Origin: a virus | Direction: 5' to 3' (one strand) | Length of the DNA stretch: 41,786 nucleotides | Virus record (IMG/VR): IMGVR_UViG_3300021960_000171 | Location: 1-41,786 of that record | Shown here: in pieces, positions 1-14,129 of the stretch | Position numbering within the stretch: position 1 is the stretch's first letter | Layout: each line of letters starts with the position of its first letter | Position numbers and translations under genes: made by a program | The notes under the pieces: generated by a model | Told to the model about the DNA's origin: nothing | Databases searched by the model: none | Seen by the model: only the letters and a program-made list of their open reading frames with translations

Positions 1-590
1 AGCATAGTGGAAGGAGTATCTTCTGGAAACCATCTGTCTTCTTTTGGTCTATTTTTTCTACCTTTTGACCATTCATAATAGTTATCTTGTACCACAAACA
101 TATCCCACCAATCTTGCATAAAGTTCTTGACAAGAGGATTTTTCATGTTATATAGACAAACACCACCGCATAGTGTCAGATCAATCTTGTCTCCTGTGCT
201 AGGAATAGGAGCCGCGACCTCTACAAAACTACCTTGTGCTCTCTTGTCTTTGGTCAACTCAACGAATTTCATATCATCGTCACCAATCTGATCCCAGATA
301 GTAATGATATCTTCGTGTTGACATTCTTGGTCAGCATCAATATACATTGTCAAATCAAAAGGTGAGTTAGCCATACCATAAAGCTTAGATCGTATGTGAT
401 CTTCACAATCAAAAACTTGGATGTTGGGATCTTCGGCTCTTTGGTCTAAGAATCTTTTTTCTGTAAACAAAGCAAATTGTGCATCTGGAATATAATCCAT
501 GATTGATTCGATTAGATTGATTGCTGAATAGTAGAACGCAATCCTCTTTGACGCTATGATTACAAAGCCTTTACTTTGTTTTGATTTCAT
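1..590 (-). CDS. Glycosyltransferase-like protein, 3' part missing
   Basis: The frame is open from the ATG at 590 to the window edge, so only about the first 196 residues are visible. The N-terminus has a beta strand followed by a helix (GFVIIASKRIAFYYSA), and a DAD motif sits at residues 85-87 in MYIDADQ, preceded by hydrophobic residues. That is the look of the metal/nucleotide-sugar site of GT-A glycosyltransferases. The start overlaps the end of the upstream gene by 20 bases, so it is the last visible member of the fibre transcription unit. A role in decorating a virion or cell-surface sugar is inference from fold and position. The acceptor is unknown, and a non-transferase nucleotidyl fold is possible. 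Confidence 0.6.
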   Translation of the reverse strand, partial: MKSKQSKGFVIIASKRIAFYYSAINLIESIMDYIPDAQFALFTEKRFLDQRAEDPNIQVFDCEDHIRSKLYGMANSPFDLTMYIDADQECQHEDIITIWDQIGDDDMKFVELTKDKRAQGSFVEVAAPIPSTGDKIDLTLCGGVCLYNMKNPLVKNFMQDWWDMFVVQDNYYEWSKGRKNRPKEDRWFPEDTPSTM

Positions 591-1023
591 TATTATACTC
601 TTCTTGCACTAGCATACCAAGAAAGGCTTGCATTTCATAAATGTTTTTAGCTTTTCTAATCTTAGATTTTAATTTTCTATTAGTAGAGTTCTTAATAGAA
701 TCTATCTCGAAAACCTCAAGCTTTGCATTAAACAGATGTTCAAGTTTTCTAGCTTGGTCAGACTCACTTCTTTTTCGTTTTTCAGTTTCATGTCTTTGTC
801 TGTGCCTATCTTCTCTTTCCTTGGTATTTTTATCAATTTTCTCAATACCATTCTGAGCAATGATAAGTTCATAATCTTCTGTAAGTTTACCATCACGTGT
901 ATATTTACTTACTGTCGCTGTTGATGAACTTGTTTTACCATCCGAGTGGTTTATAATCAACTTAGCTGTAATCCTATCCTTCTGGTAATTTTCCCAGAAC
1001 GGGTGTTTCCATTCTTTATCCAT
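571..1023 (-). CDS. Small charged protein downstream of the fibres
   Basis: This encodes about 150 residues and I do not recognise it. The N-terminal half looks like a small beta domain (AKLIINHSDGKTSSSTATVS). The second half, from about residue 65, is very rich in Lys, Arg and Glu (TKEREDRHRQRHETEKRKR) and probably helical or coiled coil. An in-frame GTG lies one codon upstream, but AGGAG at 1030-1034 is six bases from the ATG and only three from the GTG, so the ATG is preferred. It lies between the last repetitive fibre gene and the glycosyltransferase-like gene, which suggests a fibre-associated or chaperone role. That is context only. Confidence 0.55.
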   Translation of the reverse strand: MDKEWKHPFWENYQKDRITAKLIINHSDGKTSSSTATVSKYTRDGKLTEDYELIIAQNGIEKIDKNTKEREDRHRQRHETEKRKRSESDQARKLEHLFNAKLEVFEIDSIKNSTNRKLKSKIRKAKNIYEMQAFLGMLVQEEYNNEIKTK

Positions 1024-1062
1024 CACAATCTCCTAACCTTAATTATTACTATATATACCTCT

Positions 1063-3603
1063 CTAGGCTGTCCTTACATATAGTGTATAGGTCTCAATAT
1101 TTGTATTTCCAGATTCTATCAATGTGCCTGTATAGTTACCCACATAATCTCCGGTATAATCTCCGGTATAATCTATAGTAGAATCACGAGTTGACTCTAT
1201 AGCGGCACCCTCATAAGTCCCAGTATAATCTCCAGTAAAGTCTCCTATATAATCCCCAGTAAAATCACCAGTATAGTCCTCTTGATCATCACGTGAATAA
1301 GCCCCTTCATAGGTTCCAGTATAGTTACCTGTATAGTTGCCCGTATAATCAACAGTGCTATCTCTGGTGGAGTCACGAGTAAAAGCATCCCCATCAAATG
1401 CGCCACTATAGGCACCAGTATAGGTTGCAGTATAGTTACCAGTGTAGTTTCCAGTATAATCCGCAGTGCTATCTCTAGTAGAGTCACGAGTAAAATCGGC
1501 ACCATCATAGTTACCTACATAGTTACCAGCGTAAGCGGCATCATAGTTTCCTACATAATTTAGAGAATACTGACCGTCATAATTACCTGTAAAATCCCCA
1601 GTATAGTTGCCAGCAAATACAGTAGTACTGTCTCTAGTAAAGTTTGCTTGATAGTTACCAGTATAGTTACCAGTGAACAGCGTTGTTGAGTTACGAGTTG
1701 ATACACGAGTAAAGTTTGCTTGATAGTTACCTGTATAGTTTCCAGTAAACACCGTTGTTGAGTTACGAGTTGATACACGAGTAAAGTTTGCTTGATAGTT
1801 ACCAGTAAAATCGCCAGTAAAGTTATTAGTTGAATTACGAGTTGATGTTCGTGTAGATGTTCTGGTATAAGCGCCATCGTAGTTACCTAAAAAGTTACCA
1901 GCAAAGTTACCAGCAAAGTTGCCTACAAAATCTCCAGTAAAAGAAGGCCCAGGTGTGCCGCTATAGAATATTTGGCTGTTTCGTGTAGATGTTCTGGTTG
2001 ATGTTCGTGTAGATGTTCTGGTTGATGTTCTGGTATATTGGCCACCATAGTTACCTAAAAAGTTACCAGCAAAGTTACCAGCAAAATCTCCAGTAAACAC
2101 CGCTGTTGAATTTCGAGTAAAGTTTGCAACATAGTTACCAGTGTAGTTTCCAGTAAAATCACCAGTATAGTTTTCTGCAGCGGCACGAGTGAAGTTTGCG
2201 GCATAGTTGCCAGTGTAGTTTCCAGTAAAATCACCAGTATAGTCTTCTGCAGCGGCACGAGTGAAGTTTGCGGCATAGTTGCCTACAAAGTTACCAGTAT
2301 AGTTTTCTACTGCAACCGCTGTACTATTACGAGTATATTGACCATCATAGTTGCCAGTGTAGTCTCCCTCATAGTTGCTTACATAATTGCCAATATAGTT
2401 GCCATTATAAGTTCCAATATAGTTACCAGTATAATTTCCTATAAAGTTACCACCATAAACTTCTTGATCATCACGAGTAAAAGCAGCACCATCAAAAGCG
2501 CCGTCATAAGCACCATCATAAGTTCCAACATAGTTACCAGTATAATTTCCAATAAAGTTACCACCATAAACTTCTTGATCATCACGAGTAAAATTGGCAC
2601 CATCAAATACACCATCGTAATTACCAGTATAGTTTCCAGTAAAAACATCAGTTGAGTTGCGTGTAAAGTTGTCAGTTGAGTTTCGAGTAAAGTTTCCTGT
2701 GTAGGGTGTAAAAGCACCTAGGTAATTACCAATAAAGTTTGCATTATACTGCACTTGTGAATTTCGTGTAGATGTGCGACTATATGCTGTTTCTGTAGAT
2801 GCCTTTTTCGTATCTGTGGCAGTACCTTTTGCTACCCAAGTCCCTGTTGCCGTAGGTACACCTTGAGTTCCAGTTCTCACCAAGTACTTGCCAATGCCGC
2901 CTGACATAATTCTATTCTGAGCAAGCTTACCGAGAGTGTAACTAATTTGACCTACGGTTGCTTCCTGTAAGCCAGTGTAACTACCACCTTCGTCTTGTGG
3001 CGTACCTTTTATCCTAACATACTTAACAGTTGTTGGGGCTGTCATAGCGGTTCGTTTCCAAATGCTATAGTTTAGAGCCGTACCATCTGTACGATTATCT
3101 GTAAATACATTTGTAAGTGCAGCGGTATAATCTCCACTCGGTGCACTTGTTGCTAGTTTGTATGTGCCTGGATAATCATTTTCGTGGATGATTTTGTTTA
3201 ATCTATCCATAAGGATATTAGAATCAGAGTCTGCCATTTCTCTAATATCGCCAGAATCATCACTATCAGCAACCCTAACAAATCCAAAGGGTAAGCGAAA
3301 CCCATCTGAGTCTACTAGATCAGCAGCCCCTGATTTTTGATAAAGTATTTGGTTTGTAGTTGTCGTAGTGACATTTTCATGTACACCCACTGCTTGATCA
3401 AACTGAGTATCAGTGAAAGTACCGATAGCATCACCACCAGCACCAGAGATATTTAAGCGACTTACAGAAGTGTTTGCAATGGTAGATAGTTTTAAGCCAG
3501 CACGATAGGCCAAATAGTTTTCTTCAGCCGAATCATTGAAACGGATAAGAGATGCATCACTATCTCCTAACTTGAGAGGAATGTTTGTTGCTGTACGTGC
3601 CAT
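1063..3603 (-). CDS. Repetitive tail-fibre-like protein, tetrapeptide repeats (846 aa)
   Basis: Residues 1-285 form a non-repetitive N-terminal domain (with AEENYLAYRAGLKLS near the start and TAALTNVFTDNRTDG further on). Residues about 283-835 consist almost wholly of short repeats of the form G-N-[YF]-x, broken by [YF]-T-R-x-S-T units and runs of TSTR. The protein ends in a short cap, TYTLYVRTA. The same N-domain and the same cap occur in the 499-residue gene just upstream, so the two are tandem paralogues with different repeat lengths. A host-contact or tail-fibre role is inferred from position after the baseplate genes and from the long low-complexity shaft. No receptor domain is recognisable. 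It starts 9 bases after the paralogue's stop. Confidence 0.7.
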   Translation of the reverse strand: MARTATNIPLKLGDSDASLIRFNDSAEENYLAYRAGLKLSTIANTSVSRLNISGAGGDAIGTFTDTQFDQAVGVHENVTTTTTNQILYQKSGAADLVDSDGFRLPFGFVRVADSDDSGDIREMADSDSNILMDRLNKIIHENDYPGTYKLATSAPSGDYTAALTNVFTDNRTDGTALNYSIWKRTAMTAPTTVKYVRIKGTPQDEGGSYTGLQEATVGQISYTLGKLAQNRIMSGGIGKYLVRTGTQGVPTATGTWVAKGTATDTKKASTETAYSRTSTRNSQVQYNANFIGNYLGAFTPYTGNFTRNSTDNFTRNSTDVFTGNYTGNYDGVFDGANFTRDDQEVYGGNFIGNYTGNYVGTYDGAYDGAFDGAAFTRDDQEVYGGNFIGNYTGNYIGTYNGNYIGNYVSNYEGDYTGNYDGQYTRNSTAVAVENYTGNFVGNYAANFTRAAAEDYTGDFTGNYTGNYAANFTRAAAENYTGDFTGNYTGNYVANFTRNSTAVFTGDFAGNFAGNFLGNYGGQYTRTSTRTSTRTSTRTSTRNSQIFYSGTPGPSFTGDFVGNFAGNFAGNFLGNYDGAYTRTSTRTSTRNSTNNFTGDFTGNYQANFTRVSTRNSTTVFTGNYTGNYQANFTRVSTRNSTTLFTGNYTGNYQANFTRDSTTVFAGNYTGDFTGNYDGQYSLNYVGNYDAAYAGNYVGNYDGADFTRDSTRDSTADYTGNYTGNYTATYTGAYSGAFDGDAFTRDSTRDSTVDYTGNYTGNYTGTYEGAYSRDDQEDYTGDFTGDYIGDFTGDYTGTYEGAAIESTRDSTIDYTGDYTGDYVGNYTGTLIESGNTNIETYTLYVRTA
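1099..2757 (-). repeat. Coding repeat: G-N-[YF]-x tetrapeptides with TRxST/TSTR spacers
   Basis: The underlying unit is 12 bp (GNYT, GNYD, GNFT and similar), with interspersed 15-bp units for [YF]TRxST and 12-bp TSTR units. Copies differ at third codon positions, so the array is old or under protein-level selection rather than freshly slipped. Longer higher-order blocks recur, for example the pair of similar blocks at about 2440-2500 and 2560-2600 that encode DDQEVYGGNFIGNY. Confidence 0.85.
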
Positions 3604-3612
3604 AGATATACC

Positions 3613-5112
3613 TTATGCTGTTCGAACATATAATGTATAAGTATCTATAGTAGAACTACTTGCCTGTATAGTTTCGCCAGCATAGTTTCCAGTAAAGTTG
3701 TTTGTTGAGTCTCTTGTATAGTTACCATCGTAGTTACCCAACGAATTTCGTGTATAAGCTCCCTCATAGTTGCCAATAAAATCACCTGTATAGTTACCAG
3801 TGTAGTTTCCAGTAAAATCACCTGTATAGTTACCAGTGTAGTTTCCAACAAAATCACCAACAAAATCACCAACAAAATTCCCAGTAAAATCACCTATATA
3901 GTTACCATCGTAGTTACCAACAAAATCCCCAACAAAATCCCCAACATAGTTACCAACATAGTTACCAACATAGTTACCTATAAAGTTTGCTGTACTCTGT
4001 GTAGGATTGCCTGTGCCATCGTTAACTCCTGTATAATATATTTGACTGTCTCGGGTTGAAGTACGAGTTGAAGTACGAGTTGAAGTACGTGTAAAATTAA
4101 CTGTAGAATTTCTGGCATAATTTTCTACAGCAGCCAAGGTACTATTACGAGTATATGCAGCAGAAAAAACAGTGGTACTATTACGAGTATATGCAGCAGA
4201 AAAAACAGCGGTACTATTACGAGTATATGCAGCAGCAAAAACAGTGGTAGAGTTTCGTGTATAGTTACCAACATAGTTACCAACATAGTCACCGACATAT
4301 TGTCCATCATAGTTGCCTATAAAGTTACCAGTGGACACTCTAGTATAATTTTGGTTTGCAGTCTCTTGTTTAGTATCTGTAGCAGTACCTTTTGACACCC
4401 ATGTACCAGCAGGTAATGATTGACCAGATGCAAGAAGTTTATATGTACCAATACCAGTTAAACTGATTCTTGTCTTGGCTCTTTGCCCAAAGGTATATTG
4501 GATCTCAGCCTCATCCATAGCTTTTAGATCAAAGTCATTATGTAATTTTTGCGGAGAAACCTTGGTAGGTGCAGTGCCACTGGTTTTTATCCAAATGCTA
4601 TAGTTAATTGATGTGCCGTCTGTTCTTGTATCAGTAAACACATTAGAAAGTGCTGCAGTCCAATCACCACCAGGAGAACTAGCAGCAAGTCTACGACACC
4701 CAGGATGTTCGTTAGCAAAAGTTTTTAAAAGTATTCTATCAACAATATTAGTGAATTCAGGAGAGTTTGCTGCTTTGAGTGCCACAACATCACCTGTTGC
4801 AGACCTATCAAAAATCACAGGTTTATGAAAGTTTGCTCCGCTTTCAGTAGCAGTGCCAGTTGTCTGTTTCAGTGTCACATTGGTAGTTGTAGTTGTAAGA
4901 GATCCATCGTGGCTTCCCACGGCATCATCGAAACTAGTATCACTAAATGTGCCAACTGTAGTACCAGTACCTGATGCTTTCAAACCAGCATTACTGGTAC
5001 CTGATGTATCAAGAGAAAGTCTTAAACCTATTTGATAGGCTATATAATTTTCTTCGGCATGGGTTATTTTTGTTAAGTTACCGTCACCATCGGCTTTTAA
5101 TAAGGCATCCAC
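3613..5112 (-). CDS. Repetitive tail-fibre-like protein, short paralogue (499 aa)
   Basis: The start is GTG at 5112 with AAAGGA eight bases upstream; no better ATG exists. Residues 1-255 are homologous by eye to the N-domain of the 846-residue neighbour: AEENYIAYQIGLRLS, TAALSNVFTDTRTDG and GTWVSKGTATDTK all have counterparts there. Residues 256-482 are the same G-N-[YF]-x repeats with TRNST and TSTR units. The last residues, TYTLYVRTA, are the same cap. The array is less than half the length of the neighbour's, the pattern expected for fibres that change by duplication and recombination. A virion role is inferred from position in the tail cluster. Confidence 0.7.
   Translation of the reverse strand: MDALLKADGDGNLTKITHAEENYIAYQIGLRLSLDTSGTSNAGLKASGTGTTVGTFSDTSFDDAVGSHDGSLTTTTTNVTLKQTTGTATESGANFHKPVIFDRSATGDVVALKAANSPEFTNIVDRILLKTFANEHPGCRRLAASSPGGDWTAALSNVFTDTRTDGTSINYSIWIKTSGTAPTKVSPQKLHNDFDLKAMDEAEIQYTFGQRAKTRISLTGIGTYKLLASGQSLPAGTWVSKGTATDTKQETANQNYTRVSTGNFIGNYDGQYVGDYVGNYVGNYTRNSTTVFAAAYTRNSTAVFSAAYTRNSTTVFSAAYTRNSTLAAVENYARNSTVNFTRTSTRTSTRTSTRDSQIYYTGVNDGTGNPTQSTANFIGNYVGNYVGNYVGDFVGDFVGNYDGNYIGDFTGNFVGDFVGDFVGNYTGNYTGDFTGNYTGNYTGDFIGNYEGAYTRNSLGNYDGNYTRDSTNNFTGNYAGETIQASSSTIDTYTLYVRTA
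3667..4347 (-). repeat. Coding tetrapeptide repeat array, second paralogue
   Basis: This is the same 12-bp period as in the neighbouring gene. One stretch (about 4130-4255) repeats a 14-residue block, AAYTRNSTTVFSAA-like, four times with few changes. Another (about 3780-3980) is almost pure GNYVGNYVG/GDFVGDFVG. It differs from the neighbour's array in block order and length. Confidence 0.85.
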
Positions 5113-5124
5113 AGTATTAATCCT

Positions 5125-7806
5125 TTAGTTAAGAAGCGTCCCATCAGAATCATATATTCCAGGAACCTTTCTGCCCCATATAAAGTTACCAGAACCATTA
5201 GAAGCAAGTGCTCTATATTTAGTTCCATTACTATCTATACCCGCCATTTCTGCCACTGCTATAGAGTTATTTGTTACAGCAATCTCACCTGTACCACTTG
5301 TGTATGTAATCGAGTTACCGCCACTTAGTACTGATCTTGGTTTGGTTGTTTCTTGCGCTTTGAGTTCGTTGATAGCGCCTACCAAATCACTTGCAGATGT
5401 ATTCAAAGATCCGCCAGTGATTGTTCCAGCAAATGTGACGTTTGCTCCAGAGAATGTTGCCGCAGTTGTTGAGCCCGATTTGATAATCAAGTTTCCGCTA
5501 GTGTTTTTAAATGAACCGAAAGTAGCAGCATCATCTTTAAGGACAACATCGCCGCCACCAGCATCGAGTGTAATATCACCAGCCGCATCAATAACAAGTG
5601 CATCAGATGTTGTAATGTGTTGGGATGTTGAATACATGGAAAACTTAATCTGTTCTCCAGATGTAACACCTTGGAAGAATATATCATCACCAGTTGGTTT
5701 TAAATAAATGTCACCTGATGTTGAAGTTTGCAGAGTTAAATTTCCGCCTGCTCTTGTAATCTCATTGGCATCAATAGTAGTGTTATCAACGACAACCGAG
5801 GCAAATGTTACAGCATCAGTGTGTCGAGCAACTTGCTCTTTATCAGTTGTAGTACCAATTTTCCAATAGTTGTTGCCTTCATCCCAGAACAGTTCAGCAG
5901 AGTCTTGAGTACCACGTCTGACACTCAATATTGCATCATAAGTTGGAGATGATGGAGTTGCGCCAGAAGATGTGCCATCCATCAACCTAATCTCATTTGA
6001 AGCATTTCTTGAAACACCAGCTGTGGTAATATTACCGTTGACTGTGATATCATCATCGAATGTTACAAGACCGTGGAATGTTGAGTTTGATATACCACCA
6101 CTTGCTTCAAAGGTTACCGCTCTTGCATCACTTGATGTGCCAGAAGCAATTCTAAGTTCCCCACCTTCTGTTCTCAAAGCACCAAACTGTGTTCCACCAT
6201 CATCAAGTTCTATGACACCACCATCGGCATCAAGATTAATATTACCAGCGGCATCTAGTTTTAAGGCATCAGACACTGCAATTGTTTGCAGAGTTGTACC
6301 CATTGTAAACTTTATTTGTTCATTAGAAGTAGTACCTCTAAAATATACATCATCACCAGTTGGTACAAGAAGAATATCACCACCAGCACTTAAAGTAAGA
6401 TCACCACTTGATAGAGCAATCGAAGTGTCATCAATGTGCATGTTATCAACATCAATACCGCCATCTGCAGTCACAAGTCCACTTACATCGAGTGTACCAG
6501 TTGTTGCAACATTACCAGTAGTATTAGCAACCGTAAATGCACCATCCATGTCGATGCCACCATCAAGAGATGCGAGTCCAGAGACATCAAGTGTACCAGT
6601 GGTTGCTACATTACCAGAAGTGTTAGCAACAGTAAATGCACCATCAGCATCAATACCACCATCAAGTGACGCAAGACCAGAGACATTAAGAGTGCCTGTT
6701 GTTGTAACATTACCAGTAGTATTAGCAACACTAAATGCACCACCATCAGCGGTTATACCACCGTCAAGTGTGGCAAGCCCACTCACATCAAGTGTACCAG
6801 TGGTTACAACGTTGCCTGAGGTATTTGCGACAGTAAATGCTCCATCAGCATCGATACCGCCATCAAGAGATGCCAATCCAGATACGTCGAGTGTACCAGT
6901 GGTTACTACATTACCAGAAGTATTAGCAACACTAAATGCGCCACCATCAGCAGTTATACCACCATTGAGTGTAGTAAGCCCAGTTACACCAAGTGTGCCT
7001 GTTGTTACTACATTACCTGTTGAGTTGGCTACGGTAAATGCTCCATCCACATCAATACCAGCATCGAGCGATGCAAGTCCAGATGCGTTGATCACACCGA
7101 GAGTAGATGTTCCAGTTACGCCGAGAGTTGTTCCTACTGTAACCCCAGCAGTAAATGCAGCAGAATCACCCTTGATACCATCTAGGTTTGAAACGCCATG
7201 AACGTGTAAGTTTTTCCATTGTGCGCCACTTCTACCGATTGAGTAGGTAGCATCTGCATCTGGAATAAGGTTTGAAGCGATGTCTGCATTAAAATCTACT
7301 GTATCGGCAGAGTCATCACCGAAACCGATACTGCTACCAGATCCTGCTTTGAATGTGACTTGACCCTCTACGATCAATGTACCGCCCAATGTGGTGTTGC
7401 CAGCGACATTCAGTTTGCCATCAATAACAACATTATCCATAAACTCTGCACTGTCTTGAACGATCAGTTCTCCAGCGAGGTTTGTGTTGCCATCTACAAC
7501 AATATTGTTTCGAAACTCAGCACTGTCTTTAGCAATGAACTCGTTGAACTCTACATTTGAAGCTTTTAACACCGCTTGATCTAAAAGCTGATCTATAGAG
7601 TCAAGTCTATAATCAACTTCGTTGATAGCTTCGATGGCACTTGAATCTGCACCAGAAAATGTTTTTACAGAGAGTGGTCCAGAACCTTTACCGACGAAAC
7701 CGCCAGTAGTTAAGGTAGAAATATCACCAACCTTATTTGTAAGGTTGTTAAACTCATCCTTGAATGCGTCTACCCTGTTAGTTAACCGTATATAAGCTTT
7801 AGCCAT
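5125..7806 (-). CDS. Large tail fibre protein with beta-solenoid-like repeats (893 aa)
   Basis: Residues 1-90 are helical (VDAFKDEFNNLTNKV...INEVDYRLDSIDQLLDQ), probably the trimeric attachment end. Residues 229-450 hold about seven copies of a 33-34 residue unit with the core GTLDVSGLASLDGGI followed by AFTVANTSGNV. Two copies of a larger module follow at 452-597 and 670-800 (PTGDDVYFRGTTSNEQIKF versus PTGDDIFFQGVTSGEQIKF). Between them is an ILSVRRGTQDSAELFWDE segment of a type I recall from marine myophage fibres. The product is a structural fibre outside the cell. It follows a 68-residue gene by one base and precedes the tetrapeptide-repeat fibre. I see no peptidase or chaperone domain at the C-terminus. 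Confidence 0.8.
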   Translation of the reverse strand: MAKAYIRLTNRVDAFKDEFNNLTNKVGDISTLTTGGFVGKGSGPLSVKTFSGADSSAIEAINEVDYRLDSIDQLLDQAVLKASNVEFNEFIAKDSAEFRNNIVVDGNTNLAGELIVQDSAEFMDNVVIDGKLNVAGNTTLGGTLIVEGQVTFKAGSGSSIGFGDDSADTVDFNADIASNLIPDADATYSIGRSGAQWKNLHVHGVSNLDGIKGDSAAFTAGVTVGTTLGVTGTSTLGVINASGLASLDAGIDVDGAFTVANSTGNVVTTGTLGVTGLTTLNGGITADGGAFSVANTSGNVVTTGTLDVSGLASLDGGIDADGAFTVANTSGNVVTTGTLDVSGLATLDGGITADGGAFSVANTTGNVTTTGTLNVSGLASLDGGIDADGAFTVANTSGNVATTGTLDVSGLASLDGGIDMDGAFTVANTTGNVATTGTLDVSGLVTADGGIDVDNMHIDDTSIALSSGDLTLSAGGDILLVPTGDDVYFRGTTSNEQIKFTMGTTLQTIAVSDALKLDAAGNINLDADGGVIELDDGGTQFGALRTEGGELRIASGTSSDARAVTFEASGGISNSTFHGLVTFDDDITVNGNITTAGVSRNASNEIRLMDGTSSGATPSSPTYDAILSVRRGTQDSAELFWDEGNNYWKIGTTTDKEQVARHTDAVTFASVVVDNTTIDANEITRAGGNLTLQTSTSGDIYLKPTGDDIFFQGVTSGEQIKFSMYSTSQHITTSDALVIDAAGDITLDAGGGDVVLKDDAATFGSFKNTSGNLIIKSGSTTAATFSGANVTFAGTITGGSLNTSASDLVGAINELKAQETTKPRSVLSGGNSITYTSGTGEIAVTNNSIAVAEMAGIDSNGTKYRALASNGSGNFIWGRKVPGIYDSDGTLLN
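5413..6453 (-). repeat. Duplicated ~130-residue fibre module (two copies)
   Basis: Copy one spans about 6016-6453 and copy two about 5413-5799. Both run through NLTL, a DI-L-PTGDD motif, EQIKF, SDAL, DAAG-I-LDA, a -TFG- segment and a second G-L-I-SG strand. The spacer encodes the RRGTQDSAELFWDE segment. This looks like an internal duplication that lengthened the fibre. Confidence 0.7.
6457..7122 (-). repeat. Seven ~100-bp coding repeats in fibre gene
   Basis: The unit of 33-34 codons encodes variants of GTLDVSGLASLDGGI then DADGAFTVANTSGNVVTT. Alternate copies insert one Gly (TADGGAFSVANT), giving a two-copy higher-order pattern. The regular period of hydrophobic and Gly/Asn turns suggests a beta-solenoid shaft. 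Homology between units would allow recombination that changes shaft length. Confidence 0.8.
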
Positions 7807-7807
7807 T

Positions 7808-8014
7808 TCATTGCTTCTCTATTAGTTGTTTCAGCAAGGCTTTCATTTCGCTCATTTCATTTTCTAATGCTTGCAATTTTGCGTCTTTATTTTTTCTATC
7901 ACGTCTAACATTTCTGAGCCTTTCAGCTTCACTTCTATTTATATTGATTAAAGCACCGTTTTTTACATCTCTAACAAGATCATCTCTACCTTTAACTTTA
8001 TTATAAATTTTCAT
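7808..8014 (-). CDS. Small coiled-coil protein (68 aa)
   Basis: It is short and charged: an N-terminal basic segment (MKIYNKVKGRDDLVRDVKNG) and then, from about residue 30, a heptad-like helix (LQALENEMSEMKALLKQLIEKQ) typical of a short coiled coil. The start overlaps the stop of the upstream gene as TAATG, and the next gene begins one base after its stop, so it is translationally coupled on both sides. No family is recognised. A minor virion part or fibre-attachment factor is possible. Confidence 0.65.
   Translation of the reverse strand: MKIYNKVKGRDDLVRDVKNGALININRSEAERLRNVRRDRKNKDAKLQALENEMSEMKALLKQLIEKQ
7936..7943 (-). promoter_or_regulatory. Possible T4-type late promoter inside the 68-aa gene
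   Basis: The minus strand reads TATAAATA, the T4 late consensus, about 130 bases before the ATG of the 893-residue fibre. It lies inside coding sequence, and in AT-rich DNA the octamer is expected by chance several times per window, so this is weaker than the intergenic copies. Confidence 0.35.
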
Positions 8015-9603
8015 TATGTACCAAGAGCAATTATAGACAAGTCACGAATCTTTGGAACACGACTTTGGTCTGTAGAGTTCATAACAAGTTTTACTTGAAA
8101 GGCATTAAATTCTGGTAAGGTTGTACCTGTAGTTGCTCCAATGTTATATTCATAATCTCTATATTGATTATCATCAATAGATTTTCCTGGATCGGCATCA
8201 ACAGTTGCCGCAATAAAGTTTGTTGTTGAAAGATCTGAATCATCGCCAATAGCACCAGTTCTGTAATACAGATCTACAGAAGTGTTGTTTAGAACATTGG
8301 CTCCATATAGAATCCTTAAACCTGTTGAAGGTTCCTCTAATCGGACTGTTTTAGTAATATGCTTTGCAAGAGATGACCCACTTGTTGGATGTGTTTCTGG
8401 AACAAAATTAAGTGGCACATTAAATCCTACAGTTGCAGCAGAATCTTGATTATCAATAATGTTACCGATTACCGTAAGACTAGCTCTTTGAGCATCAATG
8501 AATGGAGTGACAAAATCATTTGATATATCGGTTGACATAGTTGCACTAATAATAGTAGATTGTGTAATGGAATGCAAGTTCTCGTTTGAATCATTCATGA
8601 TAACGTGTGGAACATCCAATTTAGTATCTTGGTCGTTGACCATTGCAAGATTTGATGTTACACCATAAGGTGTTTCAGTACCAGCAAAAGATTTTGATGT
8701 AGCTATATCACCTGTAAGTGAGACAGTGGAAGTATTCCTTGGATTATATATTTCAATACTAGGTTGGATTACATCATATTTAATTTGTTTAGATGCAAAG
8801 ATACCGGAGCCACCAAATTCAACAGATGCTGTTGCATTCCCACCTGCATTAAATTTATATCCAGTTCCATCAACAGCTGTAATAACACGTCTACCATTTA
8901 GGTTAGCCGCTGTAATACCATTTACGGTCCCAGTTACACCAATGATATTGACCCTATCATTGATCTGAAATCCATGGTTGGGATGTTGAACTCGAATAAC
9001 AGCACTCGATGCAGTACCAGTAAATGGATCATCGATAAGAGGATCTTCATCAACATTAGCATCAAAGAACTTAGCTATACCGCTGGTAGAAGCAAACTTT
9101 GCAACATATAAATTATATTTTAAATCTACATCCAAATTCGGTGCAGGTGCATTACCGGTGTTACCACTAAACATGTTTCCAGGTGCAAGGTTTTTTACAA
9201 TTTTTCTTGTGGTAGAACCTAGATTAAAATCAAGAACCTTTCCGCCCCAAACCTTATATGTATTAGCCTCGGAACATGCAAGAGTAAAAGCATGCATTTT
9301 ACCTGGGTGTAAATAAACAGGTTCATCAAATTGGAAGGATGTTGCCACACTTGCGTCGGTTGAAGTAGTAATAGAAGATGCGTTTCTTGTTACTTGAGAT
9401 CCTGGAATAATCTGATAGGTATTAGGCGCACCTTGATCAGCATTTCTTATTGCTAAAGTAATAGGATATGTTGCGCTTTTTTCTTGGAAAAATACCTCAA
9501 CCTTTGTTAAATATGCACCATGAATAGACCCTAGCGCAAAAGTTTGCGCCATAGGGTTAACATGAATATCTTGAGGTACACCTGACTTTGTACTATATGC
9601 CAT
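8014..9603 (-). CDS. Baseplate-associated virion structural protein (529 aa)
   Basis: The N-terminus (VNPMAQTFALGS, then GAYLTKVEVFFQEK and PITLAIRNADQGAP) is a beta-rich module I associate with T4-like marine phage baseplate/fibre-network proteins: a D/NP-AQTF motif followed by a jelly-roll-like strand pattern. The middle has a Gly-Ser-rich beta segment around residues 190-270. The C-terminus ends SRVPKIRDLSIIALGT. It follows the 1504-residue protein by 11 bases and overlaps the next gene as TAATG. A gp10/gp9-like position is suggested by order, but I cannot assign a T4 gene number. Confidence 0.65.
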   Translation of the reverse strand: MAYSTKSGVPQDIHVNPMAQTFALGSIHGAYLTKVEVFFQEKSATYPITLAIRNADQGAPNTYQIIPGSQVTRNASSITTSTDASVATSFQFDEPVYLHPGKMHAFTLACSEANTYKVWGGKVLDFNLGSTTRKIVKNLAPGNMFSGNTGNAPAPNLDVDLKYNLYVAKFASTSGIAKFFDANVDEDPLIDDPFTGTASSAVIRVQHPNHGFQINDRVNIIGVTGTVNGITAANLNGRRVITAVDGTGYKFNAGGNATASVEFGGSGIFASKQIKYDVIQPSIEIYNPRNTSTVSLTGDIATSKSFAGTETPYGVTSNLAMVNDQDTKLDVPHVIMNDSNENLHSITQSTIISATMSTDISNDFVTPFIDAQRASLTVIGNIIDNQDSAATVGFNVPLNFVPETHPTSGSSLAKHITKTVRLEEPSTGLRILYGANVLNNTSVDLYYRTGAIGDDSDLSTTNFIAATVDADPGKSIDDNQYRDYEYNIGATTGTTLPEFNAFQVKLVMNSTDQSRVPKIRDLSIIALGT

Positions 9604-9614
9604 TTATTTCGCCT

Positions 9615-12600
9615 TTATATTTTAACATTTGTTTTTGCTGTCAAGTACTTGCCGATCAATCGACATATTGGGTAACCAACAGTCATTATCATTTTTCCAA
9701 AGATATTAGATTTATATTCAGTTGGGTTTAATTCATGTGCCATTTGTTTAGCCCAGGAACCAGCAACTGGTCTTGCAAGAAGATGAAGAACTAATTTATT
9801 ACCAATACCACTTCCTTGTATATATTTAGCAATTGGTTTACCCCAAACATAATAACCATTGTAAAGATCTGGATCAAGTCTTTGTGTAGCTATACCGTAT
9901 TCTTGGTCAAGCCTATAAACACCTTCACTAAGATATCCAAGATTATATAAGGCAGTACATATAACAGTACCATCGCCGCCGCCACCGCCGCCACCGCCAC
10001 CTGGAGCCGCGCCACCTGGTGACGGTGACGGTGAGGGACAGGCATCTCCCATGTCTACACCACAAGGTTTGTTGTGAACTAAAATACCGTTTGCATAATA
10101 TGTGTTGTTACCAGTTAAACTTAGATTATACAGTTGAAGTTCTGGTTCTCTTTCTTGTGGTACCCACGATTCAATTTTTAATTTACCTTGTTCAGTTACA
10201 AGAGTTGTTCCTATATTAATATCAACCAGAGGACCGCCATTATCATTTACAACATTTGCATATGCTTGTGGATCATGTTGTTCAAATTCTTTTACATTTA
10301 TAGCTCCCCACCCTTCTGTGGTCATCAGAGGATGTTCTTCAGATAAGAATGGTTTCATATCATTAATACCATTAATACCATACAGTAATCTTGAACCGAT
10401 AGGAACAATTTCAATAGCAGTTACTTCGTTATTCCAAGTATGCCCTTGTTCATCTGGCATACTTTTCACCATATCACCACGTCTTACTGCAGAGATATGC
10501 TTCTTTGTTCCATCAGACATAGTTACTAGAGTATCAGAAGTGAAGCAAGACGGTTGTGCATAAGGTGGGTAAACTTTATTTTCTACATATCTTGTATCGG
10601 TGGCGACAGCAAAGTCATATTCTCTTGTTACCAAGAACTCTTCTTGTGATACTCTTAATACACCAGCAGATGTAAATATACCTTTTGTATATGATGTAGC
10701 ATTTTTGGTATTATGCGTTTCAACATCAGTAATAAGTATCTCACGTCGTCCTGTGTTAATTTTAATTGTATCATTATTTGGAATAAGAATATAACCAGAC
10801 AACGCACCATTAGCATCAGTAGTGTGTGTTGTTGCTCCACCTAATGTTGCCGGATAGCCAGTTGCATTTTTCCATTTCTTACCAGCTTTTCTGTAAATAG
10901 AGTCACGTGCAAGAGTAGCTTCGGGAACATATGCGCCAACACCTGTTGCTGTAGATGCATATGCACTTATGTTAACTTTGCCCATAAAAATAAAGTGTTT
11001 TGTATTTGGTCTAAGCCCAGTTGCTCTGATGGAGACAAATCTTGCTCTCATCTTTTTAATTTCACTTGTTGAAATAATTTTTTCGCCAAGAGATTCAACA
11101 ACTGTTTCAGAATTTTTAAATTTCCAAGTTTTCGTTTCAGTTGTACTTCCCGCTGCAGTACTGGTTGTAGTTGAGTTACTACCTAGGACTTGACCTCTTT
11201 TATAGGTATCAGCATCATCTGGGGTAATACCTCTCCAAGAAGTATTCCAATCTTGGTATTTGCGACCATTGACAGAGATTTTATCTCCACCTTGGATAAG
11301 CTTATCTGCTTTATCTACATCATCATACCAACTATCAGACCGTGGAGACATTTGTAATGTACCTGTCATGGTCTGAATACCAACAGGATTTACGATAAAG
11401 GCTCGAGATGCTTTTGTCTGTGACTGTGTAAGAAAATGTGTATATTTCAAATAAATGTTATCACCAACTAAACGAGTGTTTGTGGATGTATCCGAATCAT
11501 ATACAAGAGGCACAGAGTATGATCTAAAATTAGGACGAATCTCGTGTCTAATCATATCACGTGATGATCTGTAGTTCGAGTCAAGTGTATCTGTGCCTAT
11601 GTCATTGAAGAAGTTATCAGCAAAGATGCCAGATTTAAATCTGTTATTACCAGCACTATCGTAAACGTTTACATTATCTTGTTTCAACTCAAGCATTGTA
11701 AGCGCAGTAAGTTCCTCAAGATCATTGATCTTTTTCTCTAAATGCCCAATATCTCTCATAGTATATCGGCGGTTATCTTTATATGTAACCGTCAAGTCAT
11801 CGTCTGTAATCATATATGGATTAAGTTCAATAGAAGCAACTTCCATAGTACCCTCACCAAGTGTAGGATACTTTGGTTCGAACGCTGGGTCACCAAACTT
11901 AACACCAACATAACCATCTCTATGAATAAATGCCTTACCTCTTTTAGGAAGGTAGTAATCAACATCGAGAGTAATAATGTCTGTATTTTTTGGTAAAGGA
12001 AAAACAGCCGCTCCAGAAGAACTAAAGTTATCTGCACCATTTGCTTTACGAGGTCTAAAGTCTAAGACGTCATACAACGGAATGGACTCTCCATTCGCTT
12101 GTCTGTGACCTGGAATATCTTCATATGCTACTTGACCATCATATGAGTTTACTGCAAAGAAGTCTCCTGTAGAACCATGATTAAAAAACTTATATGTTAC
12201 ATTTATGTTACCAGCAGGCGCAGCTTTGCCACCTTTCAATATAAGCTTACCTCTTCCATAGAAGTTGTCAGTTTGACCATTATCTAAAGTGAAGTTTCTA
12301 GTAATATCTAATGATGTAGTAGCATCTATAACTGACGTAATAGAATAGATATCACATCTATCTAAAAGAACACCTCTTGAACCAAGAGAAATGCCACTCT
12401 GAGTTCTATCCTTGAGAGTCTTAGATCTTACAGTAGCTACCTTTTTCTTTTGATAATAGTATATTACAACACTTGCACTTGCTGTAACACCCTCTAAAAC
12501 AGTAGTTGAAGTACCAGCAGTTTTTACTGTAAAGTTTTCAAATACTCCTGTGCTGCTATTGGCAACAATCCAGCTAGTAGCATTGACAAGATCAAAGGAA

Positions 12601-14129
12601 CTGCTAGTTCTAGTAACTGTAACTTCTCCATCACCATCAGCGGTCAACGTGGCTGATGAGTATTGAGCTATAACCGAGATGTCGCTGATTTGTTCTGGTC
12701 TATTTTTAGGCAATGCAAAAAGTAAGTTGTTATTTTGCACATCTTTCAGTTGAGCAATGCCTGTAGGTTCTAATGTCACATCAAAATATTGTGTAGTGCT
12801 ATCGCCAAGTGATCTTACAAGAGATATATTTTTACCAGAGTTCATTTTGACTTCGAACAAATAAACTCTATATCCACTCCCTGCTTTTTCTACTGCCCTT
12901 ACTCTTGCAGTACCAATAGTAGATCCGCCATATGTAATAGCACTTCTAAGCTGAACAATTTCAAAGTTAGTAATATCAAATAGAGTATCTAGTTTACCTG
13001 TAGAACAGTTAAAGTAGTTACCATATTGAGCAACTGAGGATGTATTTTGCACATTTCCTGTTGTTCTTGGTTTTGAATAGAATGGTGAAACAGCTCCACG
13101 AAGATAATACCGATGCCCCTCTACATATGCTTTACCTGGATTAAAAGTAATATCTAGATTTGTATTGTCTGAGTCATTAGTGGCAAAATCAAGAAGAAAG
13201 TTACCGATTGTATAGTTACCAGATTCTTCATGAGTTCTTCGAGCCATCTCCTCACCGATATCTGAATATTTTTTATCAAGTGCTGTTGTGTGTGATAAAA
13301 TTCCATCAGAAATACCAGCTATTGGGATAAATCGTTCGTCGCTATCTATTAAACTATTCAAAGTGAGTTCTAATTTAACTTGATATCGGTCAGCGCCTGG
13401 CGCAGCTAAGTTTAAGTTTGGACCAGAGTTATCAAAAAGATTTTGATCATCAGCTGATGTAATGATTTTTTCTGATACTTTAAAACCAACCATTTCAGTT
13501 GGTGTAGCATCATATTTACCAACAACAATATCTTCAGCAGATTTATATATGGCATGGCCATCAAGATAGAATCTACCTTCACCCTGCGCCACAACACATG
13601 ACTTACCGAGTGCGGGATTTAATAAAGTGTTTGTAGTTTGAATATCAAGAACAGTTCCAGAAGTAGAGCCTGTAAGAGATCTACCTGGTGTAAGGTTTAC
13701 TGATGCTGTTGTATCGGTTGGAATTTCTCCATTTGCATCAAGAATTTGTACAAATAATGTTGCGGGATCTGATCCTGTTGCTGTAACAACTTTTAAAACT
13801 TTTACAATAATACCTGATGTACTCTCAACAAAATTCTCATTTTCAATGCTGGTAGGAGTTGCAGGTAAACCGTTTGTTGAAGTATCAAGTTTTACAAATT
13901 TTACATCTTTTCGTACATCTATATCACCGCCAGATATAGAAGCGCCGGCACGATAAATCCCACCTTGCATCGCATCTTGATCACGATTGATAATGGTCTG
14001 TAATTGGTTTAGTTCTCGGTTCTGTAGACCACGCCCAGAGTTAAAAAGGATCTGATAATAGTTGTCACTATCTCTGTAGTCATCCTTATATTGTGTAAGG
14101 AATAAATTTTTGATTACTTCGGTTGCCAT
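9615..14129 (-). CDS. Giant DUF4815-type baseplate protein with C-terminal Hint domain (1504 aa)
   Basis: Residues 1 to about 800 have the pattern of DUF4815 proteins of marine T4-like phages, from the opening FLTQYKDDYRDSDNYYQILF to a region with YYLPKRGKAF. Residues about 800-1190 are a helical then beta-rich continuation. Residues 1195-1353 are a complete Hint domain without endonuclease. Next come a PSPSPSPGG linker, nine consecutive Gly, and a 115-residue helical tail (CTALYNLGYLSEGVYRLDQE, VWGKPIAKYI, WAKQMAHEL) that looks like a conserved folded module. It sits between gp8 and another virion protein, so it is probably a wedge or outer baseplate part. T4 has no equivalent with a Hint domain. 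Polypeptide cleavage at the Hint is inferred; the DUF4815 assignment is from memory of the family. Confidence 0.75.
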   Translation of the reverse strand: MATEVIKNLFLTQYKDDYRDSDNYYQILFNSGRGLQNRELNQLQTIINRDQDAMQGGIYRAGASISGGDIDVRKDVKFVKLDTSTNGLPATPTSIENENFVESTSGIIVKVLKVVTATGSDPATLFVQILDANGEIPTDTTASVNLTPGRSLTGSTSGTVLDIQTTNTLLNPALGKSCVVAQGEGRFYLDGHAIYKSAEDIVVGKYDATPTEMVGFKVSEKIITSADDQNLFDNSGPNLNLAAPGADRYQVKLELTLNSLIDSDERFIPIAGISDGILSHTTALDKKYSDIGEEMARRTHEESGNYTIGNFLLDFATNDSDNTNLDITFNPGKAYVEGHRYYLRGAVSPFYSKPRTTGNVQNTSSVAQYGNYFNCSTGKLDTLFDITNFEIVQLRSAITYGGSTIGTARVRAVEKAGSGYRVYLFEVKMNSGKNISLVRSLGDSTTQYFDVTLEPTGIAQLKDVQNNNLLFALPKNRPEQISDISVIAQYSSATLTADGDGEVTVTRTSSSFDLVNATSWIVANSSTGVFENFTVKTAGTSTTVLEGVTASASVVIYYYQKKKVATVRSKTLKDRTQSGISLGSRGVLLDRCDIYSITSVIDATTSLDITRNFTLDNGQTDNFYGRGKLILKGGKAAPAGNINVTYKFFNHGSTGDFFAVNSYDGQVAYEDIPGHRQANGESIPLYDVLDFRPRKANGADNFSSSGAAVFPLPKNTDIITLDVDYYLPKRGKAFIHRDGYVGVKFGDPAFEPKYPTLGEGTMEVASIELNPYMITDDDLTVTYKDNRRYTMRDIGHLEKKINDLEELTALTMLELKQDNVNVYDSAGNNRFKSGIFADNFFNDIGTDTLDSNYRSSRDMIRHEIRPNFRSYSVPLVYDSDTSTNTRLVGDNIYLKYTHFLTQSQTKASRAFIVNPVGIQTMTGTLQMSPRSDSWYDDVDKADKLIQGGDKISVNGRKYQDWNTSWRGITPDDADTYKRGQVLGSNSTTTSTAAGSTTETKTWKFKNSETVVESLGEKIISTSEIKKMRARFVSIRATGLRPNTKHFIFMGKVNISAYASTATGVGAYVPEATLARDSIYRKAGKKWKNATGYPATLGGATTHTTDANGALSGYILIPNNDTIKINTGRREILITDVETHNTKNATSYTKGIFTSAGVLRVSQEEFLVTREYDFAVATDTRYVENKVYPPYAQPSCFTSDTLVTMSDGTKKHISAVRRGDMVKSMPDEQGHTWNNEVTAIEIVPIGSRLLYGINGINDMKPFLSEEHPLMTTEGWGAINVKEFEQHDPQAYANVVNDNGGPLVDINIGTTLVTEQGKLKIESWVPQEREPELQLYNLSLTGNNTYYANGILVHNKPCGVDMGDACPSPSPSPGGAAPGGGGGGGGGDGTVICTALYNLGYLSEGVYRLDQEYGIATQRLDPDLYNGYYVWGKPIAKYIQGSGIGNKLVLHLLARPVAGSWAKQMAHELNPTEYKSNIFGKMIMTVGYPICRLIGKYLTAKTNVKI
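9975..10001 (-). repeat. Nine-Gly codon run in linker after the Hint domain
   Basis: On the plus strand it reads GCC/ACC triplets, i.e. nine Gly codons on the coding strand, flanked by GGAAP and DGT. It is markedly GC-rich compared with the surroundings. It forms a flexible linker between the Hint domain and the C-terminal module, and its triplet nature makes it prone to length change. Confidence 0.85.
10071..10547 (-). other. Hint (intein-like) domain, residues 1195-1353
   Basis: Block A begins at Cys1195: CFTSDTLVTMSDGTKKH, then RRGDMV. Block B has its histidine in LSEEHPLMT. The C-terminal block is YYANGILVHN, ending in Asn1353. At 159 residues it is mini-intein size, with no room for a homing endonuclease. 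The residue after Asn is Lys1354, not Cys, Ser or Thr, so the classical transesterification acceptor is absent. This matches the bacterial intein-like (BIL, A-type) arrangement, which mostly cleaves at one or both ends. Active-site residues are seen directly; activity is inferred. Confidence 0.85.

Follow-up and report, generated by a model that had tools for sequence, protein, structure and literature searches.

The window analysed here is the whole 41,786-nucleotide (41.8-kb) stretch of an uncultured virus record (IMG/VR IMGVR_UViG_3300021960_000171) with T4-like tail and baseplate genes. At its left end, the minus strand encodes, in gene order, a large DUF4815 tail protein, the C-terminal partner of that protein, a 68-aa virion protein, an 893-aa fibre-like protein, two fibre proteins referred to below as A and B, a basic protein of 150 aa and a glycosyltransferase-like protein that is truncated. 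Fibre A (3613..5112, minus strand) has a GTG start and 499 aa, fibre B (1063..3603, minus strand) an ATG start and 846 aa, and a gap of 9 bases separates the two ORFs. The N-domain, formed by the first ~255–265 residues, is common to both proteins, and the C-terminal TYTLYVRTA is identical. The first-pass annotation had described tandem paralogues with these two ends and had taken them for fibre proteins; the paralogy is confirmed, and both genes lie among tail and baseplate genes of T4-like type. Up to a conserved GTW motif, the N-domain comprises residues 1–238 of A (4399..5112, minus strand), conserved in 30 aligned relatives and predicted by AF2 with a pLDDT mostly >85, and residues 1–256 of B (2836..3603, minus strand), aligned with A and its relatives. 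The TYTLYVRTA cap lies at 3616..3642 in A (minus strand; stop codon 3613–3615) and at 1066..1092 in B (minus strand; stop 1063–1065), the latter placed from the ORF list and from conservation of the cap in relatives.

Between these ends is a repeat body of about 235–242 residues in A and 571–582 in B, depending on the landmark chosen, close to the earlier figures of about 230 and 550. Its four-residue unit is best written from the anchor as [YFS]-x-[GR]-[ND]. In A, 51 units with an anchor every fourth residue make up 84% of the body (mean 12.4 and maximum 22 in 1000 residue shuffles); in B, 116 such units make up 81% (shuffles, mean 29.8 and maximum 42). Aromatic autocorrelation in the two proteins reaches 4.1–4.3 times expectation at lag 4 and is ~0 at lags 3 and 5. 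The G-N-[YF]-x repeat proposed earlier therefore holds in its period, far beyond shuffles, but the anchor is sometimes Ser (13 of 51 units in A and 24 of 116 in B), mostly in TRxS units in which Arg replaces Gly. Nor is the period strict, as had been stated, since single-residue slips break it, for example at the DGAAFTRD step in B. That a four-residue period fits no collagen, heptad or pentapeptide shaft remains correct. A collagen-like shaft, with Gly every third residue, is ruled out by the identity autocorrelation at lag 3 (0.04 of expectation in A, 0.17 in B), and a pentapeptide-repeat solenoid by that at lag 5 (0.35 and 0.34), compared with 3.9 at lag 4. A single-chain solenoid was also considered and rejected: 12-residue super-periods exist, and the mirror symmetry described below would be left unexplained. 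One such super-period is strong in a 5′-cut relative ORF (L014 1–9930), which has 3309 residues with 270 consecutive four-residue units and the same downstream cassette as the window fibres. DNA arrays with 12-, 36-, 72- and 111-bp periods are present at the fibre locus, so that the 12-bp period and block copies noted earlier are real. Reading of the sequences found no His in the repeat bodies of A and B.

The fibre genes are followed by a cassette that is kept in 47 of the 52 loci with room for it (window 3–1026, minus strand; L009 9154–11061). Its first member is the ~150-aa basic protein (571..1026, minus strand), for which alignment placed a homolog within 4 kb downstream in those 47 of 52 loci, and which by its position is possibly an assembly factor. 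The next ORF of the cassette (3..590, minus strand), cut by the contig end, aligns at 87% identity with an L009 protein and carries the invariant D-A-D, recognized by eye, of a 264-aa glycosyltransferase-like member. The third member, of 227 aa with an invariant YPP-G...WHNNANA...H...R, appears by eye to be iron oxygenase-like. These proteins could have a role in fibre modification; the L009 copies gave no family match, and PDB searches did not confirm the 227-aa protein as an oxygenase or the 264-aa protein as a glycosyltransferase. On the other side of the fibre genes, the 893-aa fibre-like neighbour (5125–7806, minus strand) has its own tandem array, with 99- and 201-bp periods, at 6445–7084. 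The DUF4815 protein (9615–14129, minus strand) contains a Hint-like module (Pfam Hint, E 7e-4, aa 1194–1236) followed by a 159-aa tail, and in the ORF after it (8014–9603, minus strand) the C-terminal part of this family continues (phrog_358 1765–2054 of 2056). The protein is a single one in phage C48C1 and at L087; Hint-like sequence occurs in 15 loci including the window, and the segment behind the module in the window only. We read the two ORFs as a split or a self-processing tail protein.

Relatives and co-conservation of the two ends

Pfam, PHROGs and NCBIfam gave no meaningful match for A or B. For an alignment of 30 N-domain members, PHROGs gave none and Pfam matched one member at E 0.055, while Foldseek against PDB and BFVD returned no match with E < 0.001. 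A phmmer match of A to a Plasmodium surface protein (E 1e-4) is confined to the repeat stretch. Among 50,697 phage records the N-domain was found in C48C1 only, a phage on which we found no paper, and a profile search of genome contigs with the N-domain gave no relative. The family is frequent in IMG/VR, where 193 of 213 pattern-matched stretches encode a relative, as do 133 of 222 obtained with a second profile.

The first set used below consists of 94 distinct complete proteins, which fall into 72 clusters when grouped by the similarity of their bodies. The second set has 127 complete proteins, with 31 clusters unlike any of the first set; in these held-out clusters no member reaches 60% identity with a first-set protein across 30% of a body. 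As clusters were formed on the bodies, N-domains remain related across them. Alignments A1 (33 sequences) and A3 (20 sequences) were chosen from the relatives collected at that point. The N-domain and the C-terminal cap occur together in all 94 complete relatives (84 by pattern, 10 variants by eye), and in the second set the cap accompanies the N-domain in 122 of 127 by pattern, with a further 3 clear variants and 2 diverged. The part after the N-domain ranges from 149 to 3083 residues across the 94 proteins. Non-repeat domains lie inside the arms, in both or in one only, at L012, L029, L049 and L084.

Mirrored organization of the repeat body

Sequence statistics demonstrate, besides the co-conservation of the ends, a tip at the midpoint of the body, a register between its halves, a complementarity of Ser and aromatic anchors, and paired insertions and deletions. 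When the sequences are folded on themselves, anchors come to lie opposite anchors, and TRxS units opposite aromatic units. The register is i + j = W of GTW + first Y of TYTLY + 3 (offset 3). It was chosen from the Y/F correlation in short relatives, with Ser unused, and agrees with AF2. In A, where i + j = 733, the outgoing arm (residues 239–359; 4036..4398, minus strand) consists of four-residue units and holds a 12-aa array at height 51–88, and the return arm (3643..3993, minus strand) provides 25 anchor–anchor pairs. All 12 Ser anchors in such pairs lie opposite Tyr or Phe, there is no Ser–Ser pair, and 4 anchors lie opposite a non-anchor. The outgoing (1978..2835, minus strand) and return (1093..1935, minus strand) arms of B form 50 anchor–anchor pairs with the same pattern: 20 of 20 Ser anchors opposite Tyr or Phe, no Ser–Ser pair and 29 anchors opposite a non-anchor.

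Across relatives, Ser–Ser pairs were counted without a fitted alignment, an offset being used only where a protein offered at least 8 anchor pairs at it. In the first set, offsets −1 to 11 gave 40 Ser–Ser pairs versus 101.6 expected, and distant offsets 1395 versus 984 (bootstrap ratio 0.21–0.58 near the register versus 1.07–1.90 at distant offsets). The held-out test, from which 5 of the 127 complete ORFs were left out as lacking the strict anchor motif, had its minimum at offset 3, with 1 pair versus 10.0 expected, followed by 4 versus 11.5 at offset 7; distant offsets gave 1298 versus 486.6. At similar anchor-pair numbers, there were 11 pairs at offset −1, 8 at 11 and 25 at −5, and 13 to 46 at the listed offsets at least 3 units away. 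Pooled, the four near offsets gave 24 versus 39.0 (bootstrap 0.29–1.15), the signal being confined to offsets 3 and 7. With a fitted alignment, Ser–Ser depletion was 0.61 at the register and 0.62 two units off, and is therefore unspecific (the 39 of 72 clusters whose arms each have three or more Ser anchors); Arg–Arg depletion is likewise unspecific (0.68 at offset 3, 0.66 at −5).

Anchor positions were also compared on their own. Offset 3 ranked first in 9 of 72 clusters in a gapless test and was best in 11 of 94 relatives in a scan of Y/F only. In 18 of 72 clusters every margin exceeded the spacing-shuffle control (0 of 200), and antiparallel exceeded parallel in 47 of 72. Gapless tests of this kind gave mixed results; they are weakened by the near-uniform period and by the many one-sided inserts. 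With gaps allowed and the midpoint split fixed, the antiparallel score exceeded all 100 in-phase rotations in 48 of 72 clusters and the parallel score in 62 of 72. At L107, irregular anchor spacings of 6 and 8 could be matched along the two arms by eye, and the arm spacings correlate with r 0.44, versus at most 0.34 in 200 spacing shuffles. The C48C1 protein, with arms that are interrupted by domains, gave no clear mirror or register signal.

Non-repeat breaks in the body often fall at the midpoint between the conserved ends. The predicted tip of A (3994..4035, minus strand; around ...SQIYYTGVNDGTGNPTQ...) is a non-repeat stretch centred 1.5 residues from the midpoint, and in relatives with bodies of 522, 592 and 943 residues the breaks are 3.0, 2.0 and 1.0 residues off. 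In B, the predicted tip (1936..1977, minus strand; around ...SQIFYSGTPGPSF...) is placed at the register midpoint. Non-repeat sequence occupies the predicted tip in 58 of 72 clusters versus 33.6 expected, in 24 of the 29 clusters with regular bodies versus 7.1 (profile peak 0.79 at relative position 0.5), and in 28 of the 31 held-out clusters versus 19.9. In 18 of 36 close pairs the arms are better conserved than the tip (means 0.86 for the arms and 0.75 for the tip); the tip is not clearly the more variable part, and the difference is too weak to serve as proof of receptor contact.

Length changes are mirrored as well. Counting indels of at least 4 aa outside the tip in the 36 close pairs, which are mutually dependent, we found that 26 of 73 had an equal-length partner at mirrored height, versus a mean of 4.3 (maximum 16) with randomised positions and 8.8 (maximum 22) with shuffled lengths. 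In the second set, on tree edges only (all 46, some contigs being shared with the first indel set under other locus numbers), 42 of 128 indels were mirrored at equal length, versus 3.8 (maximum 14) and 15.8 (maximum 28), respectively. The cleanest case is that of L261 and L265, whose DNA agrees to 97.4%: there is a 60-aa difference on the way out, at height 308, and another of 60 aa on the way back, at 314, and the paralogues adjoining them differ by 32 aa at heights 220 and 232. L203 and L264 differ by a gain or loss of 12 aa at each of two places, heights 94 and 95, with ~1150 residues of chain between them. In fibre B itself, the two arms carry tandem arrays whose periods agree and whose heights correspond: one of 37 aa at height 67–145 outgoing (DNA 2402–2638) and 79–156 returning (DNA 1317–1548), the other of 24 aa at 185–241 (DNA 2114–2283) and 185–255 (DNA 1636–1846). 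One-sided indels are also many, such as a 118-aa domain in the return arm only (L082/L084).

Such symmetry might be a by-product of DNA block copying between the two halves, with no protein contact, at a locus rich in tandem repeats where outgoing and return blocks do share some DNA, including part of both 111-bp units in B. Yet direct copies yield parallel, not reversed, order, and copying cannot cause Ser to avoid Ser at one register. Moreover, the two inserts of L261/L265, each built of 12-residue units, are unlike in sequence, and paired inserts are only 0.64–0.88 identical in DNA to the best adjacent copy. We consider this explanation highly improbable. As to the earlier suggestion of a generator of length and order diversity, repeat length does vary greatly, as the range noted above shows, and the proposed comparison of repeat counts among relatives found them to differ widely rather than to be identical. 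As worded, however, the suggestion is not supported, for the repeat does not vary freely: the gains and losses tend to come paired, which speaks for a constraint more than for a loose generator.

A predicted antiparallel hairpin

AF2, run on single chains only, predicted for A strands at 238–268 and 465–497, the second being that of the C-terminal cap, and 268 + 465 = 733 is the exact register. The block pLDDT is 93–96 over the last 19 residues and <50 over 262–470. For a short relative (L026), strands were predicted at 259–289 and 389–421, with 289 + 389 = 678 = W259 + Y416 + 3, and pLDDT <50 over 278–400. In both proteins AF2 confidently models the hairpin base only and not the middle of the body, and pairing of the two chain ends is predicted rather than observed. 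The first-pass annotation had called the C-terminal motif a terminal cap, which implies a distal position; the motif is predicted instead to lie at the base, paired with the final part of the N-domain.

On these grounds, each protein is very probably a fibre subunit folded as one giant antiparallel β-hairpin. The N-domain would form the base, and the first half of the repeat body would run out from it as a very long strand. At the short non-repeat tip in the midpoint the chain would turn, and the second half would return in fixed register to end in the TYTLYVRTA cap, paired with the final N-domain strand. On each arm, every fourth residue (Tyr, Phe or Ser) would lie opposite its counterpart, large with large or large with small, but not small with small. 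Two arms complementary in size would therefore need length changes in both at the same height. In a β-strand, the anchor and the Gly/Arg would share one face and the other two residues the other; the size complementarity of the anchors suggests that the anchor and Gly/Arg face is the packed one. The base of N-domain and cap most likely sits on the tail, with the hairpin as a stiff needle whose tip would meet the host. By analogy with T4 gp37, the assembly is probably a homotrimer with six strands, pairing between subunits and/or within one. A β-strand advances 0.33 nm per residue, from which we infer fibre lengths of ~42 nm (A) and ~97 nm (B) if the strands run along the fibre axis. The structure, once judged hard to guess, is thus partly accounted for by the hairpin evidence.

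Three other readings of the body were weighed. In a one-way trimeric shaft, a β-helix or similar, the C-terminal motif would be a distal cap and the internal symmetry accidental. One-way shafts are usual for phage fibres, T4 gp34 being a parallel trimer (PMC3004832), and the middle of the body indeed has no confident AF2 model; such a shaft nevertheless gives no reason for the midpoint tip, the Ser/aromatic register, the paired indels or the pairing of the ends, and we regard it as very unlikely. The low pLDDT of the middle, together with its low-complexity composition, could suit a disordered linker or tape tethering the N-domain, to which we give almost no credence, as register, complementarity and paired indels require a fixed structure. 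It is somewhat easier to imagine, though still unlikely, that the out-and-back path is right and that the mirrored contacts are made between subunits, or that the arms run next to each other as parts of separate sheets. Sequence statistics are blind to the distinction between pairing within a chain and pairing between subunits, and in T4 gp37 the contact of the mirrored residues G921 and F970 is made across subunits (PMC6957217). Against this, the residue-level register and the size complementarity point to direct contact, and AF2, supplied with a single chain, pairs the ends within it in exact register.

If the hairpin reading is true, a low-complexity repeat that seems structureless would become legible, the partner of each residue following from the two conserved ends. 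The coevolution implied, exemplified by L203/L264, is unusually long-range for a single molecule, and one must ask by what means a phage alters the two halves of a single gene in concert. The predicted distal point would be the midpoint of the sequence and not the C-terminus, so that annotation by the usual rule would mislead. Whether these proteins represent a marine, largely uncultured and widespread fibre class of single-chain hairpins, with up to ~1000 residues per arm, a cross-strand code (aromatic opposite aromatic or Ser, Ser not opposite Ser) and two-sided evolution, we consider evenly balanced. On that reading, any change in the length of a fibre would require matching edits hundreds to more than 1000 residues apart within one gene, and sequence alone would reveal how long the fibre is, its register and where the host-contact tip lies.

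Comparison with known fibres and needles

The one relative found among the phage records, the hypothetical 3347-aa protein WJE88074.1 of C48C1 (OQ984149.1, Kyanoviridae), ends in the cap ETYTLYVRVA and is followed by the same three downstream genes; unlike those of the window fibres, its arms are interrupted by extra non-repeat domains. S-RIM2-type cyanophages match by repeat only, with no N-domain match: the structural protein YP_007675557.1 of the cultured Synechococcus phage S-RIM2 (L050 2–5053) has four-residue [VL]-T-G-[ND] repeats. The C-terminal triple-stranded β-helix of T4 gp5 likewise combines a short-period repeat with a needle shape. According to PMC3004832, gp5C has an octapeptide repeat in a three-start intertwined helix with chains running one way, whereas the window fibres have a period of 4 and mirrored arms.

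The out-and-back topology is already known from T4 gp37; in known phages the design occurs only in such a short terminal piece. The gp37 needle, at the tip of the long tail fibre, is a six-stranded antiparallel β needle with an out-and-back chain (PMC9659904), its collar D10 comprises residues 811–881 and 1010–1026 on both sides of the needle (PMC6957217), and a putative receptor domain occupies 932–965 (PMC9659904). From these residue numbers gp37 has a mirrored register of its own, with 921 + 970 = 881 + 1010 = 1891, and the receptor domain lies at the midpoint of the needle, as the predicted tip does here. The path of the gp37 needle (domains D10–D11), out to the tip and back antiparallel, is matched by the window fibres in their sequence statistics, and a base built from N- and C-terminal segments by the predicted AF2 strands that sum to the register.

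The likeness to gp37 is one of working, not of homology. PDB sequence searches with A, with B and with the N-domain profile matched no gp37 chain. For the gp12/gp10 collar fold, VIA-align gave best Z scores of 7.1 (2qp2) and 5.6 (3tow), both unrelated proteins and below a meaningful level, and Foldseek gave no confident match. We found no published description, in the open-licence literature, of a whole fibre of this kind that combines a repeat code with coupled changes of length and with arms reaching ~1000 residues. The gp37 needle has iron-binding His, whereas the window fibres have no His motifs and carry a four-residue aromatic repeat. Its arms are ~60 residues long, compared with ~125 and ~290 in the window, up to ~1000 in relatives and 1500 in C48C1 if the fold is the same. 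The hairpin proposed here would thus extend the out-and-back needle of gp37 to whole fibres.
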